A DNA stretch of 64,000 nucleotides from Nautilia sp. PV-1 (GTDB lineage Bacteria; Campylobacterota; Campylobacteria; Campylobacterales; Nautiliaceae): contig NZ_CP026530.1 in NCBI RefSeq assembly GCF_004006315.1, positions 1,416,501-1,480,500 of the forward strand. Reading direction: 5' to 3'. A program made the position numbers and the translations under genes. Shown piece by piece: positions 4,023 through 33,677 of this stretch. Every line of letters starts with the position of its first letter. The stretch's first letter is position 1. The notes beneath the pieces were generated by a model. The model worked only from the letters and a program-made list of their open reading frames with translations. It did not search any database and had not been told where the DNA came from.

Positions 4023-4036
4023 GGAATAAAAATTGC
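4023..4036 (+). promoter_or_regulatory. Sigma-54 promoter of fliK
   Basis: AGGAATAAAAATTGCTT has the -24 GG (4023-4024) and -12 GC (4035-4036) separated by exactly 10 bases. Predicted transcription start is near 4048. An inverted repeat, TGAGCC (4038-4043) with GGCTCA (4055-4060), is centred on that start and its right arm includes the ribosome site. Confidence 0.8.
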
Positions 4037-4063
4037 TTGAGCCTCTTAAAAAAAGGCTCATGC

Positions 4064-5470
4064 ATGTCTATTATTGAAAGTCTTATTTTAAATACAGCCG
4101 ATGACGGGAGCGTTAAACCTTCAAACGGTTCCAAAGGCAACTTTTTATTGGATTTAATGAAAACATACAAAGACAATCCTGAAGAACTTACTAAACTTTT
4201 TAAAAATTTAAATCTAAACGAAAAAGATCTGGACAAAATAACTTTACAGGATAAAGACGCACAGAGCCTAAAAAAGCTTATTGATGATTTAAAACAATCT
4301 TTAAAAGAAGAAAAAACCGCTAATTTAAAAGATTTTCCAAAACCAGATATAAAAAATTCAAAAGAAAAATTAAATGAAAAAATCGTCAAAGACATTAAAA
4401 CTGACTCAACCGAATCGGAAATACTAAAAAAACTCATTAACGAAACACCAATATCCAATAAAGAGCTTGAAGACAAAATAAATAAACTCTTTACTGACAA
4501 TAAAAAAAATGAATCAGACAACAGCAGTGAAAATATAGCTGAACTAATAAACAGCAATCCAAATACTTCTTTATCAACCGATAAAAACGCTCTGGAAGAA
4601 AAGATAGTAAATGTAACGAAAAAAATGATTACTTCCCAGCAGACACTTGAAAATATAAAATTTTCAGAAAATGACGTAAAAGAATTCAAAGAAATAAAAA
4701 CATTTAAAGAACTTGTGGATTTTGCCAACAAAAAAGAATTAAATATAAGCAAAATAGTTATTTCTTATGAAAAAAATCCTCCTAAACAGAATATTCAGCA
4801 ATTTCTTCCTAAAAACAAAATAGCTTTAAAAACCGACAAATTAAACAGTTTAAAAAAAGATTTAAAATTTAACAATAAAAACACGGTTTCAAAAGAAACC
4901 CCTAAAAACATACTTTCATCTTTAATTAAACAGACCAAAGACACTCTAAAGCCGGAAGAACAGTTAAATATCAACGCTTTAAAAGACACTGTGGCTGACA
5001 ATAAAGAAAAACACACACAAAGCAGAAACGTTAAAACAGATTCAATTACACAAAACAGCGGTTTCAGTGTCGACCAATTAAAACAAAACATACACAAAGC
5101 CAAACAGTCTATTCAGCATTTCAGCAGCAGATTAAAAGAAGCTATTGACAATTATAAACCGCCTATTTCCAAATTATCAATGGAACTTCATCCAAAAGAA
5201 CTTGGAAAAGTAGAAGTAACTCTTGTACACAGGGGAGACAATTTACAGATACAGATAAATTCAAACAACACCGCCGTAAGTTTTTTACATTCCCAACAGC
5301 AGGAGCTTAGACAAAACTTAATTAACATGGGCTTTACCGACGTAAATATGAGTTTTAACCAGCAGCAGGATCAGGGCAATAAAGAATACAGACAAAATCA
5401 AAAATTCGGCAATAACAACAGCGAAGAAAACGACGAGCTCATTATAGAAATACCTTACCAATACGCTTAA
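4064..5470 (+). CDS. fliK: Flagellar hook-length control protein FliK
   Basis: A secreted molecular ruler that sets hook length and switches the flagellar export apparatus from hook to filament substrates. It has 468 residues from the ATG at 4064. An in-frame TTG at 4037 would lie inside the sigma-54 promoter, so it is rejected. The long middle is rich in Lys, Asn and Asp with little order, typical for FliK. The C-terminal third carries the Flg_hook domain (LSMELHPKELGKVEVTL, then LQIQI and LRQNLINMGF) and ends in a Gln/Asn-rich tail. It is followed by flgD and flgE, as in Campylobacter. The domain is clear although the rest diverges fast. Confidence 0.9.
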   Translation: MSIIESLILNTADDGSVKPSNGSKGNFLLDLMKTYKDNPEELTKLFKNLNLNEKDLDKITLQDKDAQSLKKLIDDLKQSLKEEKTANLKDFPKPDIKNSKEKLNEKIVKDIKTDSTESEILKKLINETPISNKELEDKINKLFTDNKKNESDNSSENIAELINSNPNTSLSTDKNALEEKIVNVTKKMITSQQTLENIKFSENDVKEFKEIKTFKELVDFANKKELNISKIVISYEKNPPKQNIQQFLPKNKIALKTDKLNSLKKDLKFNNKNTVSKETPKNILSSLIKQTKDTLKPEEQLNINALKDTVADNKEKHTQSRNVKTDSITQNSGFSVDQLKQNIHKAKQSIQHFSSRLKEAIDNYKPPISKLSMELHPKELGKVEVTLVHRGDNLQIQINSNNTAVSFLHSQQQELRQNLINMGFTDVNMSFNQQQDQGNKEYRQNQKFGNNNSEENDELIIEIPYQYA

Positions 5471-5498: not shown

Positions 5499-5512
5499 GG
5501 AATACTAATTGC
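5499..5512 (+). promoter_or_regulatory. Sigma-54 promoter of flgD
   Basis: TTGGAATACTAATTGCTTGG carries GG at 5499-5500 and GC at 5511-5512 with a 10-base gap. The start codon of flgD lies 24 bases beyond the GC. Unlike fliK and flgI, no clear inverted repeat follows. Confidence 0.8.
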
Positions 5513-5535
5513 TTGGTTTATAAAAAAGGCTTATT

Positions 5536-6207
5536 ATGGCAGTAACAAGCGTATCAAACACAACTACCGCTTCAAGCAGCGATTTTGTATACAATCCGAA
5601 CTCACAGTTAACTTCAGACCAGTTTATGCAGCTGTTTTTAACCGAACTTGAACATCAGGATCCGACCGATCCCATGGATACGGATAAAATGCTTGACCAG
5701 ACAGCTCAATTATCTACAATGGAAATGAACGACAACATGCAAAAGACGTTAGACAATCTTTCTAATACTCTTCAAGCAACCGGTCAGTTCAGCGCATTGT
5801 CAGCAATAGGTAAAATGGGTGATACCGGAAACAGATATATTAACGTAACCGATGAAGATAAAAGCGTAAACTTTGATCTCTATTTCGGAAACGATATAAC
5901 AAGCGGAAATGTAATAATTAAAGATAAATCCGGAAATATCGTAAAAACATTCCCTCTTGAAGCTCATACAAAAGGGGTTTTAAACTTTGACTGGGATTTA
6001 ATAGGAGATAACGGACAAAGGGTTCCAAGCGATACTTATGAAGTAACCGCGGATTACACAACTCCTGACGGAAAACAAGAAACAACCGCGCTTGGGGCAT
6101 ATCCTATAGAATCTATCCGTTTTGAAAACGGTGAGCCTTATGCAAAATTAGGAAGCAATTATATTCCGTTCAGTCAGATACAAGAAATTTACCAATGGCA
6201 AGAATAA
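5536..6207 (+). CDS. flgD: Flagellar hook assembly scaffold FlgD
   Basis: FlgD caps the growing hook and lets FlgE subunits assemble, then is displaced. This 223-residue protein has the conserved N-terminal block LTSDQFMQLFLTELEHQDPTDPMD near residues 25-48, followed by MLDQTAQLSTMEMND. The C-terminal half is the FlgD Ig/tudor-like region (IKDKSGNIVKTF, then FDWDLIGDNGQRVPSDTY). It lies between fliK and the flgE-type gene, 14 bases before the latter, and has its own sigma-54 promoter. Length is normal for the family. Confidence 0.95.
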   Translation: MAVTSVSNTTTASSSDFVYNPNSQLTSDQFMQLFLTELEHQDPTDPMDTDKMLDQTAQLSTMEMNDNMQKTLDNLSNTLQATGQFSALSAIGKMGDTGNRYINVTDEDKSVNFDLYFGNDITSGNVIIKDKSGNIVKTFPLEAHTKGVLNFDWDLIGDNGQRVPSDTYEVTADYTTPDGKQETTALGAYPIESIRFENGEPYAKLGSNYIPFSQIQEIYQWQE

Positions 6208-8165: not shown

Positions 8166-8179
8166 GGAATGATTTTTGC
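8166..8179 (+). promoter_or_regulatory. Sigma-54 promoter of flgE
   Basis: AAGGAATGATTTTTGCTTGA has GG at 8166-8167 and GC at 8178-8179, 10 bases apart. It lies in the 60-base gap before the 866-residue hook gene, giving that gene its own expression control. Confidence 0.8.
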
Positions 8180-8210
8180 TTGATAAATAAAAACTCAAAA
8201 GGATAGCATC

Positions 8211-10811
8211 ATGATGAGAAGTTTATGGAGCGGAGTCAGCGGACTTAACGCTCACCAGGTGGCAATGGATGTCGAAGCAAATAATATTGCAAATGTTAAT
8301 ACCGTAGGTTTTAAATATTCCAGAACCAACTTTCAAAACCTTTTAAGCCAAACTGTAAAAAGCGCAACGGCGCCTCAGGGAAATTTAGGAGGTAAAAACT
8401 CCCTTCAGGTAGGTTTAGGTACAAGCGTAAGCGCAGTTGAAACAATGTTTAAACAGGGAAGTATTCAAAATACCGATAAAAATACTGATATGGCTATCAA
8501 CGGAGACGGTTTTTTTGTAGTAAGCGGAGACGGAGGTAAAACATATAAATACACTAGAGCCGGAGATTTTACTTTTGACGCAGACGGAAATTTTGTCGAT
8601 CCTAACGGATATATCGTTCAGGGATGGCTGGCAGACCCTGAAACTCATAATATAGACACATCTAGCGGCGTTAAACCTATTTCAATCCCTCCTGGATTAA
8701 CAACTCCTGCAAATCCGACAAGTAAAATTTCAATTAAAGCCAATTTAAACAGCGGTGATCATATTTCTGAAATGTCAGGAACAAGAGCGACTGTAGATCA
8801 GACTGCGGATATTAGCGGCTTATATGACATAAACGGAAATCAAATCAGCTTAACTCCTGATGTTGATAAACTAAAATTCCAGGTCAAAAGACTTGACGGA
8901 CAGACAGATACTGTTACACTTGTTTATGGCAAAAGTGCTGATGATCATGACGGTAAATTTACAACAATTAAAGACCTTATTGATGAATTAAACTACCATA
9001 TAACCCATGACAGCAACGGCGCTTCATTAAGCGATACAACCAGTATTCCTCCATCTCAATATACAATTTATTTAAACGGAAACGGACAGATTACGGATCC
9101 TTCACCTGCCGGAGACGAAATTACTTTAGATACTACGGTTGTTACAAACCAGGACTTAGTAAACGTATTTAAAGCTATAAACGGTGTTTCAAAAACCACA
9201 GGTAATTTAAAAGCTATACAAAACAGCTTTATCGGAGCCGATGACGTTGGAGAACTATTTAATGCAAACGGCGATGCGTTTAACTTAAAAGACGATCAGG
9301 GAATTACAGTAAACATTAACGGATTAGGAGAAACAAGAAAATTTATCTATTCTTCAACACCTATTAACGAAACAGAAGGCTGCGGAAGCGCTACAGGATC
9401 ATATCAGCCTAACAAAAACGTAATAAGCGATTCAAATGAAGGTCTTCACTGGACTTACTACAACGACAATACAAATTCAAGAGCATACTTAAATAACGGC
9501 CAGCAGGTAAGTTTCGTGTTGTCTAACGGTGATACCGTAACTTATACATACGGCAAAGACTTCCAGACATTTGACGATTTATGCTGTCTGTTAAATACAG
9601 ATTTGACTAACAGAAACATCGATGACGTTGTAACTTTCCAGGACGGTAAACTTGTAGAGTCTGACGGAAGCGGAATTACTGACGCTCAAATCAAAGACAG
9701 CAACGGAAATGTTATAGCAGCAGACACGACAACACCTATCGGCAGAATGGCTAAAATGTTTGACGGGCTAGACGGAACAAATGCGGAAACTATGCAGTTT
9801 TATAAAAACGACGTTTACTATTTCCATGATATACAGGATTTAACATATTTATGGCAGACTGCTGTTGACGACAGCGGAGACCCTGCAAACTCTCCAACAG
9901 GAAACAAAGGTATAGTGTCTATTAACAGCGACGGTAAGCTTGATATTAAAAACACTTCTTCAAACTCATTCAATATTACTGTTGCAGGTTATCCTGATGA
10001 TGACAAAGACAATCAGCTATTTACAGATGTATTTTCACCTATAAACGGAAGCGTTGCGGCAGGAGGCGATGCTATATCTCAGGCAATGAATGCGGCAGTT
10101 CATACTACAAGTATAGACGTATTTGACTCTCTAGGAAGCAAACATACGCTAACGCTTCATTTCAGAAAAACACATACTTCTACAAATCCAAACGATCCGA
10201 CTGTTTGGAAATGGTATGCGGAAACACCTGAACCTAGTACCCTTGAACAGCCGGCAAGCGGATATGTGAAATTCAATTCAGACGGTAGTATAAACTCATA
10301 CAATCCGCCAAGCCTGATATTCAATCCGAATAACGGCGCAAGCGCCGGACAGGCTATTCAGCTTGATTTCGGTTCTATGGGTAAATTTGACGGAATAACC
10401 TCTTTTGAAGCGCCAAGCGCTACAAGCGGACAGACTCAGGACGGTTATCCTGGAGGGGATTTGCAACAGCTTGTCGTAGACCAGACAGGTACCGTAATAG
10501 GCGTATTTACTAACGGAAGAAGCTATTCATTAGCACAGGTTGCATTGGCTAAATTTGTTAATAATGAAGGGCTTATGAGTGAAGGAGGAACTCTGTTCAG
10601 CGCTTCACCAAACTCAGGAGAACCTATTATCGGTACGGCGGGTACCGGAGGAAGAGGATCCATTCAGCCGAGCTCTCTTGAAATGAGTAACGTTGATTTA
10701 AGCAGAAGTTTAACACAGCTTATAGTCATACAAAGAGGTTTCCAGGCAAACTCTAAAACAATAACAACTTCAGACCAGATGCTTCAGACTTTATTACAAC
10801 TAAAACAATAA
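8211..10811 (+). CDS. flgE: Flagellar hook protein FlgE (major hook subunit)
   Basis: An 866-residue hook subunit, close to the roughly 840-865 residues of Campylobacter hook proteins. It starts MMRSLWSGVSGLNAHQVAMD, then NNIANVNTVGFKYSR, the signature of the family N-terminus. It ends with LEMSNVDLSRSLTQLIVIQR and NSKTITTSDQMLQTLLQL. The large central region forms the outer, surface-exposed hook domains. Polymerised outside the cell, it joins rod to filament. A sigma-54 promoter precedes it and the Maf glycosyltransferase gene follows. An in-frame ATG pair at the start (MM) leaves one codon of uncertainty. Confidence 0.95.
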   Translation: MMRSLWSGVSGLNAHQVAMDVEANNIANVNTVGFKYSRTNFQNLLSQTVKSATAPQGNLGGKNSLQVGLGTSVSAVETMFKQGSIQNTDKNTDMAINGDGFFVVSGDGGKTYKYTRAGDFTFDADGNFVDPNGYIVQGWLADPETHNIDTSSGVKPISIPPGLTTPANPTSKISIKANLNSGDHISEMSGTRATVDQTADISGLYDINGNQISLTPDVDKLKFQVKRLDGQTDTVTLVYGKSADDHDGKFTTIKDLIDELNYHITHDSNGASLSDTTSIPPSQYTIYLNGNGQITDPSPAGDEITLDTTVVTNQDLVNVFKAINGVSKTTGNLKAIQNSFIGADDVGELFNANGDAFNLKDDQGITVNINGLGETRKFIYSSTPINETEGCGSATGSYQPNKNVISDSNEGLHWTYYNDNTNSRAYLNNGQQVSFVLSNGDTVTYTYGKDFQTFDDLCCLLNTDLTNRNIDDVVTFQDGKLVESDGSGITDAQIKDSNGNVIAADTTTPIGRMAKMFDGLDGTNAETMQFYKNDVYYFHDIQDLTYLWQTAVDDSGDPANSPTGNKGIVSINSDGKLDIKNTSSNSFNITVAGYPDDDKDNQLFTDVFSPINGSVAAGGDAISQAMNAAVHTTSIDVFDSLGSKHTLTLHFRKTHTSTNPNDPTVWKWYAETPEPSTLEQPASGYVKFNSDGSINSYNPPSLIFNPNNGASAGQAIQLDFGSMGKFDGITSFEAPSATSGQTQDGYPGGDLQQLVVDQTGTVIGVFTNGRSYSLAQVALAKFVNNEGLMSEGGTLFSASPNSGEPIIGTAGTGGRGSIQPSSLEMSNVDLSRSLTQLIVIQRGFQANSKTITTSDQMLQTLLQLKQ

Positions 10812-10814
10812 TGC

Positions 10815-10844
10815 TATAATTCGCTAAAAGTCTTTCTTTTAGCG
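10815..10844 (+). promoter_or_regulatory. Extended -10 promoter and leader inverted repeat of the Maf gene
   Basis: TGCTATAAT gives an extended -10 (TATAAT at 10815-10820). Immediately after comes a 9-base perfect inverted repeat, CGCTAAAAG (10822-10830) and CTTTTAGCG (10836-10844), with a 5-base loop. The right arm abuts the GGAG ribosome site of the next gene. It could fold as an RNA hairpin or act as the flgE terminator, although no T-run follows. Confidence 0.55.
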
Positions 10845-10852
10845 GAGTTACC

Positions 10853-12646
10853 ATGCAAAAACTGTTTGAAAAAAATATTAAATTTTTTTATGAAAATTTA
10901 CCTCACTATTATGACCTTATAAAAAATCTAAAACATAGAAATTTTTATATAAAAGATGACAATCTTTATGATACTAACCACAACAAAGTATATCCTACAT
11001 CTATAACTGGAGATTCTAAACAGTTTGCACACATTCCTACACATAATCCTCTGTGGGAAAAAGATTTTTTTTATATACATCCTTTTTACTGGAAAAAAGA
11101 TTTTAATATAACGGGGGATATCATAAACTCCCTTTTCGAAAAGGCAAAAACACTCGATTCTTATACGCATGATGGTTTCTATTTTGACAAAAACTTCTTG
11201 CCCACCACGATCATTTACGGACTGCTCGCCGGAAAACATATTGACCTGCTTGTAAACAATTATGAATTCCAGTCACTGTTTATATATGAGCCTAATCCTG
11301 AATTTTTTGCAGTCAGCCTGTATTATATTGATTATGAAAAAGTGTATTCAAAATTAAAAGACAGATTTTTTTTGTGGGTAAAAGGACATATCGATTATTA
11401 TGCGATTCAAAAATTTTTCCATGAAAGAAAAATAACATCGACATTTTTCAATCTCGAACTGACGACTTACAAACATCCTTTAATGGATGACGCAAAACTG
11501 AAATTCGAAGAAGTCAAACAGACCAAATTAAGAGGCTGGGGAACGTTTGAAGATGAATACAGAGGAATAAAAAACCATTTAAAAAACCTAAATAAATACC
11601 GTACGTTCAAACCCGGAAAACAGCCTAAAAAAATTCCGGTATGCATTGTAGCAAACGGTAAAAGTTTGGAAAAAAATATTGATTTTATTAAAAATAATCA
11701 AAATTCTATGATTATCATAAGTGTCGGAACGGCTATAAAACCGCTTCTAAAAGCCGGAATACACAGCGATTTTCATATAGAACAGGAAAGAATAGAAAAC
11801 CTGGATGATATATTAAAAGACACGCTTCCGAAATATAACGGTCATTTTATAGGGGCAAGCGTAGTCAAACCTGAAGTATTTAAACTGGCAAAAAATCCCC
11901 TGATGTACATGAGAGAAGCCTTTACGCTTTCTCCTAAAGAATATGTAATAAAAGGCTCTTCCCCTATAGTCGGAAACGCCGGATTTGCATTTGCCTCTAA
12001 TATAACTAATGAAATATATCTCTGCGGTATGGATTTAGGTTTCAGATTAAATGAAAAAAAACATGCTTCCGGAAGTTATTACGATACAACAGACGATAAA
12101 GAAGAACAGGGAATTAAAGTTAAAGGAAACTTTTCTGACGATATTTATTCTAATTCTCTGCTTCTTTCATCTAAACAGAATATCGAATTAATGATAAAAA
12201 AATTAAAAATAAAAGTTTATAATTTAAGCGACGGAGCATATATTGAAGGAAGCATTCCTCTAAAAAACAAAACCCTGCCGGGTATAAATAAACAAAAAGC
12301 CCTCAAAGAAATACTGAAAAATTTTAAAAACACATCGTTTAGTATTCCGCAACTAGACTTAAATAAAATTTTGCTGCCTATAAGCAATACACTGAATTTT
12401 GAAATAAAAAGCTATAAAGACTTAACCGGAGTCGTTGATTTTATCAATGATAAACTAGATGAAAGTTTTCTTTACCATCCAAATGAATACACCCTTATAA
12501 GAGGTTCCATTTATCATATTCTAAACAATTTCTATATCACCTCTCACAAAGTAAAAATAAAAGAAATACCGGAACTAATAAAAGTAATACAAAACCAGCT
12601 GCCTCTTTATCAGAAAAAAATCAACACTCTGCTCTCTGATTTCTAA
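10853..12646 (+). CDS. Motility accessory factor (Maf) flagellin glycosyltransferase
   Basis: A cytoplasmic protein of 597 residues in the Maf family (DUF115/MptE-like), which transfers nonulosonic acids such as pseudaminic or legionaminic acid to flagellin before export. The core motif region begins at about residue 265 (PVCIVANGKSLEKNIDFI) and continues with IISVGTAIKPLLKAGIHSDFH and VGNAGFAFASNITNEIYLCGMDLGF, all typical. The N-terminal 250 residues are the less conserved Maf domain. It directly follows the hook gene but has a sigma-70-type leader. No flagellin or sugar biosynthesis genes lie in this window, so the donor sugar cannot be named. Confidence 0.88.
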   Translation: MQKLFEKNIKFFYENLPHYYDLIKNLKHRNFYIKDDNLYDTNHNKVYPTSITGDSKQFAHIPTHNPLWEKDFFYIHPFYWKKDFNITGDIINSLFEKAKTLDSYTHDGFYFDKNFLPTTIIYGLLAGKHIDLLVNNYEFQSLFIYEPNPEFFAVSLYYIDYEKVYSKLKDRFFLWVKGHIDYYAIQKFFHERKITSTFFNLELTTYKHPLMDDAKLKFEEVKQTKLRGWGTFEDEYRGIKNHLKNLNKYRTFKPGKQPKKIPVCIVANGKSLEKNIDFIKNNQNSMIIISVGTAIKPLLKAGIHSDFHIEQERIENLDDILKDTLPKYNGHFIGASVVKPEVFKLAKNPLMYMREAFTLSPKEYVIKGSSPIVGNAGFAFASNITNEIYLCGMDLGFRLNEKKHASGSYYDTTDDKEEQGIKVKGNFSDDIYSNSLLLSSKQNIELMIKKLKIKVYNLSDGAYIEGSIPLKNKTLPGINKQKALKEILKNFKNTSFSIPQLDLNKILLPISNTLNFEIKSYKDLTGVVDFINDKLDESFLYHPNEYTLIRGSIYHILNNFYITSHKVKIKEIPELIKVIQNQLPLYQKKINTLLSDF

Positions 12647-26545: not shown

Positions 26546-26582
26546 GGAACACCTTTTGCTACCTTTTGAAAAATTCAAAAGG
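26546..26582 (+). promoter_or_regulatory. Sigma-54 promoter of flgI with inverted repeat at the start site
   Basis: TTGGAACACCTTTTGCTA has GG at 26546-26547 and GC at 26558-26559 with 10 bases between. A perfect 9-base inverted repeat, CCTTTTGAA (26562-26570) and TTCAAAAGG (26574-26582), is centred on the predicted start point near 26571. Its right arm is also the AAAAGG ribosome site of flgI. Confidence 0.8.
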
Positions 26583-26588
26583 ATTTGA

Positions 26589-27584
26589 ATGTCATTTATA
26601 ATAGACAGATTTGAAAAGCTTCTGGGATTTATGTTTTTAATAGTTTTTTATATGTTCATAAGCACAAACCTTTTTGCGGCAAAAATCAAAGATATTTCAA
26701 ATATAGTGGGTGTAAGGGACAACCAGCTTATAGGTTACGGCCTTGTAGTAGGTCTTGACGGAAGCGGCGATTCATCTTCCAAATTTACCAATCAGACACT
26801 TTCAAACCTTCTTAAAAACGTAAACGTAAAACTTGATCCGAAAGATATTAAATCCAAAAACGTTGCGGCGGTTATGGTTACGGCCACTCTTCCTCCGTTT
26901 GCAAGGGAAGGAGACAAAATAGATATAACCGTTTCGTCAATAGGCGATGCCAAATCTCTTCAGGGCGGTGTTTTACTGATTACTCCTCTTAAAGGCGTAA
27001 ACGGAAAAATTTACGCCCTTGCACAAGGGCCTATAAGTATGGGCGGATTTAATTTAAAAGGCGGAAAAAATCAAAAACATTTCACCACTACGGTAAAAGT
27101 AATAAAAGGCGCAACAGTTGAAAGAGCGGTTACCTGGGATTTGTATGATCAAAAATATGCAACGCTCTCTCTTAAAAGAAGCGATTTTGACCTGGCTATA
27201 AATATTCAAAATAAAATTAACCAGTATTTTAAAACAAAAGCGGCGGTTGCCGTTGACCCTAGAACGGTAAAACTTAAAAAACCGGCCAATTTAACCATGC
27301 CGGAATTTTTGGCAAAAGTACAAAACATAAATATTCCGACTAAAATGCCAAATATTATAGTTATAGATGAAAGAACCGGAACGATCGTTGCTGGAAGCAA
27401 TATAATGGTGCAGCCTACCGTAATTACTTACGGAAGCTTTGTAATTAAAATAAAAAAAGAGACATCAATTTTGGATTTGACCCAGATGTTTCAAAAATTC
27501 AAAGCTACGCCTCAGGATATGATCGCGATTTTGGAAAATTTAAAAGCCAGCAACGCAATTGACGCAAAACTGGTGGTTAATTAA
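26589..27584 (+). CDS. flgI: Flagellar P-ring protein FlgI
   Basis: Forms the periplasmic P ring that acts as a bushing around the flagellar rod. It has 331 residues, with a signal sequence ending near residue 35 (STNLFAAKIKDI). Conserved blocks are IKDISNIVGVRDNQLIGYGLVVGLDGSGD and later NVAAVMVTATLPPFAREGDKIDITVSSIGDAKSLQGG, which is diagnostic. It is the first gene of flgI-flgJ-flgM-flgN-flgK and follows its own sigma-54 promoter. Slightly shorter than the E. coli protein (365), as usual for this phylum. Confidence 0.96.
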   Translation: MSFIIDRFEKLLGFMFLIVFYMFISTNLFAAKIKDISNIVGVRDNQLIGYGLVVGLDGSGDSSSKFTNQTLSNLLKNVNVKLDPKDIKSKNVAAVMVTATLPPFAREGDKIDITVSSIGDAKSLQGGVLLITPLKGVNGKIYALAQGPISMGGFNLKGGKNQKHFTTTVKVIKGATVERAVTWDLYDQKYATLSLKRSDFDLAINIQNKINQYFKTKAAVAVDPRTVKLKKPANLTMPEFLAKVQNINIPTKMPNIIVIDERTGTIVAGSNIMVQPTVITYGSFVIKIKKETSILDLTQMFQKFKATPQDMIAILENLKASNAIDAKLVVN

Positions 27585-27927: not shown

Positions 27928-28107
27928 ATGATTAACAGAGTAGGAGCACATACTCAGATGATATCTACCCAGCAAAAAAAAGCTCAAAACATTCAAAAAC
28001 AAGAAAAAACAGGAAGGGTAGAAGAGATTAAAGCACGTATTCAAAACGGCGAATATAAAGTCGATTTGGATAAAACCGCAGAAGCTTTGGCTAAAACACT
28101 TCTATAA
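27928..28107 (+). CDS. flgM: Anti-sigma-28 factor FlgM
   Basis: A 59-residue protein that binds FliA (sigma-28) and is removed by export or partnering when the hook is complete. It begins MINRVGAHTQMI and ends with the typical sigma-binding helices RVEEIKARIQNGEYKVDLDK and TAEALAKTLL. An AAAAAAAGG site precedes the ATG. It lies between flgJ and flgN in the usual Campylobacter order. Its small size means automated calls may miss it, but the C-terminal signature is clear. Confidence 0.92.
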   Translation: MINRVGAHTQMISTQQKKAQNIQKQEKTGRVEEIKARIQNGEYKVDLDKTAEALAKTLL

Positions 28108-28143
28108 TCTCTCCCCTTCCTGAAAAACTTAAAAGGAAGGGTT

Positions 28144-32084: not shown

Positions 32085-32188
32085 TGTGAAATAATATTTA
32101 CAATTTCTCACTTTTTTTTCAATTTTCGCACGATTTCACTATTAATTAACAATTAATTTTGATACAATTACAACAAAAAAGGAAATTT

Positions 32189-32872
32189 ATGGAAGGTAGA
32201 ATTTGGTTATTTTTCGGATTTCTGGGTCATGATCCGATGGTTCAACTAGTAGTACATACACTTCTTGCCGCAACGCTTGCGCTTATAGTTGCAAGACTTG
32301 CTACAAAAAATCTTCAAATCGTTCCAAGCGGATGTCAAAACGTAATGGAAGCGGTTGTTTCAGGTATTTTATACATCGGTTCTGATGTGGCAAGCGAAAA
32401 AGTTGCAAGAAAATATCTTACACTTGCTGGAAGTTTGGCGATTTTTATCTTTTTCGGAAACCTTCTTGAAATCATTCCTGGATTCGAACCTCCTACAGGA
32501 AACGTAAATCTTACACTTACACTGGCGCTTATCGTATTTTTATACTATCACTATGAAGGTATAAAAGCGCAAGGTTTAGGTCATTATATCGCCCATTTTG
32601 CAGGTCCTGTAAAATGGCTTGCGCCTTTAATGTTCCCTGTTGAAGTTCTTTCACATTTTTCAAGAATCATTTCTTTGGCTTTCAGGCTTTTCGGTAACAT
32701 TAAAGGTGACGACCTGTTCTTATTAGTACTGTTAATGCTTGCTCCTTATGTGTTCCCGTTAGCAGGTTTTGCTCTTATGACATTCTCTGCAATGCTTCAG
32801 GCATTTGTATTTATGGTACTTACATACGTATATATTTACGGTGCTGTAACCGGTCAGGAAGAAGCGTTATAA
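32189..32872 (+). CDS. atpB: F0F1 ATP synthase subunit a
   Basis: Membrane subunit forming the two proton half-channels next to the c-ring. From ATG 32189 it has 227 residues; an in-frame TTG 30 bases upstream is rejected because AAAAAAGGA sits just before the ATG. The essential arginine is in FSRIISLAFRLFGNIKGDD (the second R of SLAFRL), with five to six transmembrane helices and conserved PSGCQN and AFVFMVLTYVYI segments. In Campylobacterota atpB is usually separated from the other atp genes, as seen here. Confidence 0.95.
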   Translation: MEGRIWLFFGFLGHDPMVQLVVHTLLAATLALIVARLATKNLQIVPSGCQNVMEAVVSGILYIGSDVASEKVARKYLTLAGSLAIFIFFGNLLEIIPGFEPPTGNVNLTLTLALIVFLYYHYEGIKAQGLGHYIAHFAGPVKWLAPLMFPVEVLSHFSRIISLAFRLFGNIKGDDLFLLVLLMLAPYVFPLAGFALMTFSAMLQAFVFMVLTYVYIYGAVTGQEEAL

Positions 32873-32876
32873 TTTA

Positions 32877-32913
32877 GGAACGGCTTTTGCTTAGAGCTCC
32901 TAAAAAGGAGCTC
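32877..32913 (+). promoter_or_regulatory. Sigma-54 promoter with inverted repeat, upstream of an unknown small gene
   Basis: TAGGAACGGCTTTTGCTTAG has GG at 32877-32878 and GC at 32889-32890, 10 bases apart. A perfect 7-base inverted repeat, GAGCTCC (32894-32900) and GGAGCTC (32907-32913), is centred near the predicted start at 32902, and its right arm holds the ribosome site. The layout is the same as for flgI. Confidence 0.78.
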
Positions 32914-32914
32914 T

Positions 32915-33172
32915 ATGAAAATATCTTCCGGAATATCTTTTCAAAACACTTCAACTGCAAATTCTTTTCAAAACATTATGAACAATTTAAATTACGAAGA
33001 CAAAAAAACGCTCAAACAGGCACTTATGCAAATTCCGGGCAAAGAACTCCCTAAAATATTAAAAGAATTAAATAAAATACCGGTAGATGAGCATTACATA
33101 AAAAACCTGATCAACTTCATAAATACTAATATGCAAAAAAACAATAATGAAGGTTTTTTAATTTATGCTTAA
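32915..33172 (+). CDS. Unknown small protein under a flagellar-type sigma-54 promoter
   Basis: Not recognised. The 85-residue protein has no signal peptide or membrane segment. The first 25 residues are Ser/Asn/Thr-rich (MKISSGISFQNTSTANSF), resembling the disordered N-terminus of exported flagellar proteins. The rest is helical and Lys-rich, with a central IPGKELPKILKELNKIP segment. Its sigma-54 promoter matches those of fliK, flgD, flgE and flgI, which suggests it belongs to the middle flagellar gene set. The next gene overlaps its end by 8 bases. A minor hook/rod component, chaperone or regulator are all possible. Confidence 0.7.
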   Translation: MKISSGISFQNTSTANSFQNIMNNLNYEDKKTLKQALMQIPGKELPKILKELNKIPVDEHYIKNLINFINTNMQKNNNEGFLIYA

Positions 33173-33677
33173 ATATATGATAACAGACCCAAGATATACA
33201 TTAAAAGAAATAAAAGAAGCAATTATTAAATACAGACCTGATTTTGTCTGCTACAGAAACAAACTTTATTTCGACGAAAAAGAGATTATAGAATTTACCG
33301 AATTAGCAAAAAAATACACTAAAATATTTATAAACTATGATTCTCTCAACAAACAAGAACTCATAAATCTCTTTGACGGAATACATCTGCCTTCTTCAAA
33401 AATCAACAAAATAAACGAGTTTGAAAAAAAAACAGTTATTGTATCTACCCACAATATTGAAGAAGTCAAAAAAGCAGAAAAAGCTGATTATATAACTTTT
33501 TCTCCGGTATTTGAGAGCAAAGGAAGAAAAGGCCTGGGAATAGAAAAATTAAATGAAATATGCCGCCATCACAAAAACGTAATAGCGTTAGGAGGCATAA
33601 TAAGCAATAAAGAAGTCGAAAAAATAAAAAGCTCAAAAGCTGTGGGATTTGCAAGTATAAGGTATTTTTTTACATAA
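33165..33677 (+). CDS. ThiE/TenI-like thiamine-pathway protein
   Basis: A short TIM-barrel protein of 170 residues (ThiE and TenI are usually about 200-215). Recognisable segments are YMITDPR at the start, FVCYRNK matching the family substrate motif, DGIHLPSS, ADYITFSPVFESKGRKGLG and VIALGGI. Whether it is a thiamine phosphate synthase or a TenI-type thiazole tautomerase cannot be decided from motifs alone; the small size and altered phosphate-site residues favour a divergent TenI-like protein. It overlaps the preceding sigma-54-driven gene by 8 bases and the convergent tyrA by 8 bases. Confidence 0.75.
   Translation: MLKYMITDPRYTLKEIKEAIIKYRPDFVCYRNKLYFDEKEIIEFTELAKKYTKIFINYDSLNKQELINLFDGIHLPSSKINKINEFEKKTVIVSTHNIEEVKKAEKADYITFSPVFESKGRKGLGIEKLNEICRHHKNVIALGGIISNKEVEKIKSSKAVGFASIRYFFT

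Follow-up and report, generated by a model that had tools for sequence, protein, structure and literature searches.

A Sigma-54-Linked Gene in the atpB-thiE Junction of Nautiliaceae, with an SD-Covering Inverted Repeat Nested in Its Promoter

An ORF in the atpB-thiE Junction

The window analyzed here, a stretch of 64,000 nucleotides, belongs to the genome of Nautilia sp. PV-1 (G000; a single contig of 1.79 Mb) and contains a small ORF of 85 residues (85-aa ORF) that follows atpB and runs into a ThiE/TenI-like gene (Table 1). The latter has a TMP-TENI domain above cut-off (55.2 bits versus 27) and falls short of the NCBIfam ThiE equivalog cut-off. Orthologues of the 85-aa ORF are found in five Nautiliaceae genomes (G000, G001, G002, G012, and G018), with atpB upstream in all five, and the ORF is real. 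Among 11 relatives that lack it and were searched, all ten in which atpB was found have the ThiE-like gene within about 45 nt of atpB, and no sigma-54 box was seen in the 170 nt inspected in these ten. Promoter, hairpin, and 85-aa ORF are located inside an atpB-thiE junction. The 8-base overlap between the ORF and the ThiE/TenI-like gene, described in the first-pass annotation as an odd coupling, is confirmed (ORF end 33172, TenI-like start 33165); position explains the coupling, as the ThiE-like gene directly follows atpB where the ORF is absent.

Table 1. Coordinates in the window of the 85-aa ORF, its neighbors, and other sigma-54 leaders
Feature	Positions	Strand	Remarks
85-aa ORF	32915..33172	+	short form of a sigma-54-linked xxYA family
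atpB	32187..32872	+	PF00119; co-directional, 5' of 85-aa ORF; stop codon 32870-32872
ThiE/TenI-like gene	33165..33677	+	PF02581; adjoins atpB directly in relatives without the 85-aa ORF
Sigma-54 promoter of 85-aa ORF	32877..32890	+	-24 GG 32877-32878, -12 GC 32889-32890
Predicted transcription start of 85-aa ORF	32902..32902	+	12 bases past C of GC; in hairpin loop; inferred from sigma-54 geometry
Left arm of inverted repeat	32892..32901	+	-10 to -1, within promoter
Right arm of inverted repeat	32906..32915	+	over SD AAGGAG (32905-32910), reaches start codon
flgI sigma-54 promoter, same design	26546..26589	+	GG 26546; left arm 26562-26570, right arm 26574-26582
fliK sigma-54 promoter, same design	4023..4066	+	GG 4023; left arm 4038-4044, right arm 4054-4060, start codon 4064
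flgD sigma-54 leader without the design	5499..5538	+	behind fliK
flgE sigma-54 leader without the design	8166..8213	+	behind hook gene

A Sigma-54 Promoter Containing an Inverted Repeat

The sigma-54 box of the 85-aa ORF, AGGAACGGCTTTTGCTT, starts 4 bases beyond the stop codon of atpB and has the form GG-N10-GC (GG 32877, GC 32889); such a box lies at -24/-12 just 5' of the ORF, with the same geometry, in 5/5 orthologues. Sigma-54 control, as proposed at first pass, is borne out by this conservation and by a box in six of 15 long-form relatives of the protein. A tighter pattern, GGMAYNNNNWTTGCT, matches the genome of 1.79 Mb at 21 sites, versus four for the reversed pattern, and the 21 include those of fliK, flgD, flgE, flgI, flgB, flgG, flgL, flagellin, and fliW. 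Membership of the 85-aa ORF in the flagellar regulon is supported. Sigma-54 transcripts usually start about 12 bases past the C of the GC, and with this spacing the RNA of the 85-aa ORF is predicted to begin in the loop of a hairpin and to have a 13-nt leader. The accessible part of the text of PMC3656092 states no start-site distance.

The hairpin is encoded by a perfect inverted repeat, UAGAGCUCCU-AAAA-AGGAGCUCUA, between the -12 element and the ATG. Opening the SD is computed to cost 14.0 kcal/mol in RNA reading through from atpB versus 2.9 in RNA started at the sigma-54 promoter; relative to shuffled sequences, a 111-nt read-through RNA folds with z -2.99 and the own-promoter RNA with z 0.36. 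No terminator-like site was found between atpB and the ORF. The SD-covering repeat exceeds chance in 5/5 orthologues by both swaps and shuffles: none of 70 left 12-mers taken from other genes matches the stem quality of the 85-aa ORF, each of the five orthologue leaders outdoes every one of 70 substitutes drawn from leaders of other genes, and as good a stem was seen in 0/400 shuffles in G000 and in at most 0.3% in any orthologue. The five stems differ in sequence, and base pairing is kept in 44 of their 45 cells, with changes on both sides in five of the nine stem pairs; a leader's own left arm is better than an arm from another orthologue in four cases of five. These pairs were counted directly from the stems and not by formal covariation on MAFFT alignments, which was dropped because the right arms were misaligned. 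By sigma-54 geometry, the left arm lies 5' of the predicted start in 5/5 orthologues.

The Same Design in Other Sigma-54 Leaders

We collected 111 distinct sigma-54-like sites from 11 Nautiliaceae genomes and retained 75 leaders in ten genomes, dropping 26 sites without a start codon in range and ten in unrecognised or coding positions. Labels of G000 proteins were checked for flgG, FliW, FlgH, the aminofutalosine-deaminase-like gene, FlgL, FlgB, flagellin, and FlgI; PseB was checked on G003, and FliK, FlgD, and the hook genes on the window. The flgF label (only general rod/hook domains) and the labels in other genomes come from N-terminal similarity judged by eye, and flaB is named from its position behind another flagellin.

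With a pass defined as the swap test at 5%, passing leaders are those of the 85-aa ORF (5/5), flgI (3/4), flaB (4/6), fliK (2/4), flgH (1/6), and an aminofutalosine-deaminase-like gene (1/6); there were zero passes for flgB, flgD, flgE, flgF, flgG, flgL, fliW, pseB, and the single long-form gene. The left arm is wholly upstream of the predicted +1 in 16 of the 18 strong SD stems, the other two being flgG. All six flaB leaders, each behind another flagellin, exceed 4 kcal/mol; their arms are interchangeable between orthologues, and this and the flagellin upstream count against the insulation reading proposed below. The likeness to the fliK and flgI leaders noted at first pass holds for the box and the SD-covering inverted repeat; beyond the box there is no likeness of sequence. 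The promoter-nested SD hairpin, the more telling of the shared features, goes unmentioned in the first-pass annotation.

A PseD/Maf-like flagellin-modification gene (window 10820-10853) has an 11-bp inverted repeat directly after a TATAAT box, with a right arm that reaches the SD; G002 (L203) retains the stem with a changed inner part. Here a promoter of sigma-70 type may have the same design. The flgN leader (window 28114-28141) has an 8-bp SD-hiding stem that is conserved in G002 (L204); no promoter was seen between flgM and flgN (28144) despite the stem, which counts against the proposed reading. The flgL leaders of G012, G018, G004, and G008 (L148, L129, L194, and L199) have hairpins 3' of the predicted start, within the transcript. 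A sigma-54 box precedes the aminofutalosine-deaminase-family hydrolase in six Nautiliaceae genomes (L113 1500-1540 in G000; L110, L143, L151, L192, and L195); the gene is divergent from an aroQ-like gene, and with it the sigma-54 set includes an enzyme like those of the menaquinone pathway.

Association with the Orientation of the Upstream Gene

The presence of the stem follows the orientation of the gene upstream. Of 26 leaders that have a co-directional foreign gene at most 130 nt upstream, 11 pass, versus one of 40 leaders that are divergent or in-regulon (Fisher p = 6e-5). The difference in energy persists when the rows for the 85-aa ORF are removed (p = 0.002), and counted by gene it has p = 0.012. 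The fliK leader has the stem in G000 and G002, where a chemoreceptor gene is upstream, and none in G003 and G007, where typA is divergent. None of the three co-directional flgL leaders more than 130 nt away pass. Exceptions, co-directional without a passing stem, are flgI of G002, pseB in three genomes, and flgL in five; the co-directional row for flgF of G004 was retained, and probably rests on a spurious antisense ORF.

The same tendency is seen in nine genomes of other families. Of their 26 scorable leaders, the eight that are co-directional score above the 14 that are divergent (p = 0.003), with four leaders (distant or in-regulon co-directional) left out and the distance limit picked by hand after seeing the rows. 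In G023, from another Campylobacterota family, flgI (L210, L219, or L228) has an 11-bp stem with its left arm at -12 to -2; a second hairpin is nested within the loop of this stem.

Proposed Mechanism and Alternatives

We consider it likely that the 85-aa ORF is a gene of the sigma-54 flagellar regulon for an accessory protein, set in the atpB-thiE junction, whose promoter-nested anti-SD arm silences read-through RNA only. The promoter would hold the anti-SD arm between -12 and +1. RNA reading through from atpB would contain both arms and form a 10-bp hairpin, hiding the SD and leaving the ORF untranslated; RNA started at the sigma-54 promoter would begin in the loop, without the left arm, and be translated. 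In Nautiliaceae the same nested design would insulate flgI, flaB, fliK if it follows a co-directional gene, and, to a lesser degree, flgH. For the family as a whole we lean, on balance, toward a promoter-built cis switch that insulates flagellar sigma-54 genes from adjacent operons and is gained and lost as genes move.

The repeat might instead be a regulated RNA hairpin (a thermometer, or a target of CsrA or an sRNA) within a longer transcript started upstream, and be opened by a signal. FliW is present, some flgL leaders do have hairpins within the transcript, and, by the accessible part of PMC4626219, CjNC1 and CjNC4 of Campylobacter jejuni act at the SD of sigma-54 leaders. Against this, the sigma-54 box puts the predicted start in the loop in 5/5 orthologues, the GGA is in the stem and not in the loop, and presence of the repeat follows the orientation of the upstream gene. 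A thermometer in particular is unlikely given the stability of the hairpin of the 85-aa ORF, which is still -11.7 kcal/mol at 55 C. We regard regulation by such a hairpin as improbable.

A role for the repeat as DNA, as an operator or an aid to melting in sigma-54 open complexes, would fit the usual position of the left arm in the melting -12 to -1 segment (16/18 strong stems). It fits poorly with stem sequences that vary between genes and orthologues, with the majority of sigma-54 promoters, which have no repeat, and with the covering of the SD by the right arm, and appears very unlikely. We give equally little credence to a weak terminator or RNA-end stabilizer for atpB with incidental SD pairing: the repeat is directly behind atpB, but no T-run follows it, it was not called a terminator, and similar repeats follow unrelated genes at the same promoter position.

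If silencing of read-through RNA is correct, the DNA from -12 to +1 encodes an antidote to stray transcription, and late flagellar genes can live in housekeeping operons such as atpB-thiE without mistiming. Compact genomes put tightly timed genes behind busy ones, and translation from a gene's own transcript only would solve the mistiming without a terminator or regulator. It would also follow that sequence alone predicts which flagellar genes are protected, that the design has been gained and lost repeatedly with gene order, and that it constitutes a portable insulator part.

Relation to Known Systems

In the leaders of IS10/IS50 transposase genes and of phage T4 late genes, transcription starts inside a hairpin, and only RNA from the gene's own promoter exposes the SD. 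Those are mobile or phage genes, whereas the design described here lies in a chromosomal flagellar regulon; the accessible part of PMC8450116 (ISPpu9) does not state the IS10 read-through rule. In Bacillus subtilis, a hairpin that cannot form in transcripts begun at sigG's own promoter is predicted to block translation of those arriving from the spoIIG promoter upstream, according to the portion of PMC5942855 available to us. The read-through-block logic is the same, and in both cases the gene belongs to an alternative-sigma regulon. The sigG case, as described there, concerns a single gene in the sigma-F/sigma-G system and a stem of 20+ bp, whereas the Nautiliaceae stems are 7-10 bp, sit between -12 and +1 in the sigma-54 promoters of several genes, and are present or absent with neighbor orientation.

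From the same phylum come the sRNAs CjNC1 and CjNC4 of C. jejuni, which in an E. coli reporter act at the SD to repress sigma-54 leaders (PMC4626219, in the part available). Like the control proposed here, theirs is post-transcriptional and at the SD of sigma-54 flagellar genes; unlike the cis repeat within the Nautiliaceae promoters, they are trans-acting as that source describes them. We recognised no account of the design for sigma-54 or flagellar genes in our searches of open-licence PMC papers. The logic is the one proposed for sigG; what appears new within that literature is the placing of short stems between -12 and +1 in several sigma-54 promoters, in step with neighbor orientation.

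The Protein Family

The 85-aa protein stays below the cut-off of every Pfam and NCBIfam family, in keeping with the first-pass remark that no known flagellar family is recognised in it. A profile made from the orthologues and searched across Campylobacterota, a check suggested at first pass, finds a broader family of ~90-110-aa proteins in other families of the phylum. In these long forms the N-terminus is rich in Q/N/G, the core is helical, and the C-terminus is usually xxYA; a sigma-54 box lies within 60 nt in six of 15 distinct long forms (L067, L070, L084, L154, L274, and L277). G000 itself has a long-form paralogue without a box (L269 1501-1812; G000 C1:272173-272481). This would place a previously unnamed small protein family in the Campylobacterota sigma-54 regulon.

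Members occur in 11 of 60 relatives. Co-occurrence with flagella, also put forward at first pass, is seen: FliD is present in ten of the 11, and the remaining genome, 63% complete, has flgF, flgG, flgH, flgI, and flgL leaders. FliD is found in 50 of the 60 relatives overall, so that its co-occurrence with the family alone is weak evidence; no member was found among the 60 in a genome shown to lack flagella. The annotation had suggested a phylum- or order-specific hook, rod, or checkpoint part, and the restriction to a lineage stands. An essential part of that kind is unlikely, given the patchy occurrence within Nautiliaceae, where the gene is absent after atpB in 10/10 relatives checked.

A separate question from that of the hairpin is whether the protein is flagellar, or a non-flagellar one captured by a sigma-54 promoter, from a family not flagellar at root. 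The nine of 15 long forms without a box, L269 of the same genome among them, would agree with capture; a box in six of 15 long and 5/5 short forms, versus ~0.0004 per gene expected from the genome-wide count, speaks against it, as does the failure to find a member in any genome shown to lack flagella. We hold capture to be rather doubtful. Our best guess from sequence is that the 85-aa protein is a small helical member of a Campylobacterota family and an accessory, possibly exported, flagellar protein. By the accessible part of PMC4626219, C. jejuni Cj0428 is sigma-54-dependent, has no known function, and can be deleted without a motility defect; the two proteins, sigma-54-linked and of unknown function in the same phylum, are likened by description and not by sequence.

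Structure prediction from an alignment of four sequences gives four helices with a mean pLDDT of 68, a low-confidence helical bundle with disordered ends (pLDDT <50 for residues 1-13). The disorder at the N-terminus is compatible with export through the flagellar apparatus. Foldseek with this model gave no match at E <1; VIA peaked at Z 5.7, against unrelated helical chains and at a level that chance can give, and a PDB sequence search gave weak unrelated matches only. Two profile matches were set aside as weak helical similarity: NCBIfam flagellinolysin (6/11 members, best E 2.3e-4; 14 bits for the 85-aa protein versus a cut-off of 205) and Pfam Metal_resist (5/11 members, best E 1.6e-4). Identity with FlgM was rejected, as FlgM has its own gene at 27928. 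FliK (4064-5470), the 85-aa protein, and nearly all long-form relatives of the latter end in YA preceded by a hydrophobic residue.
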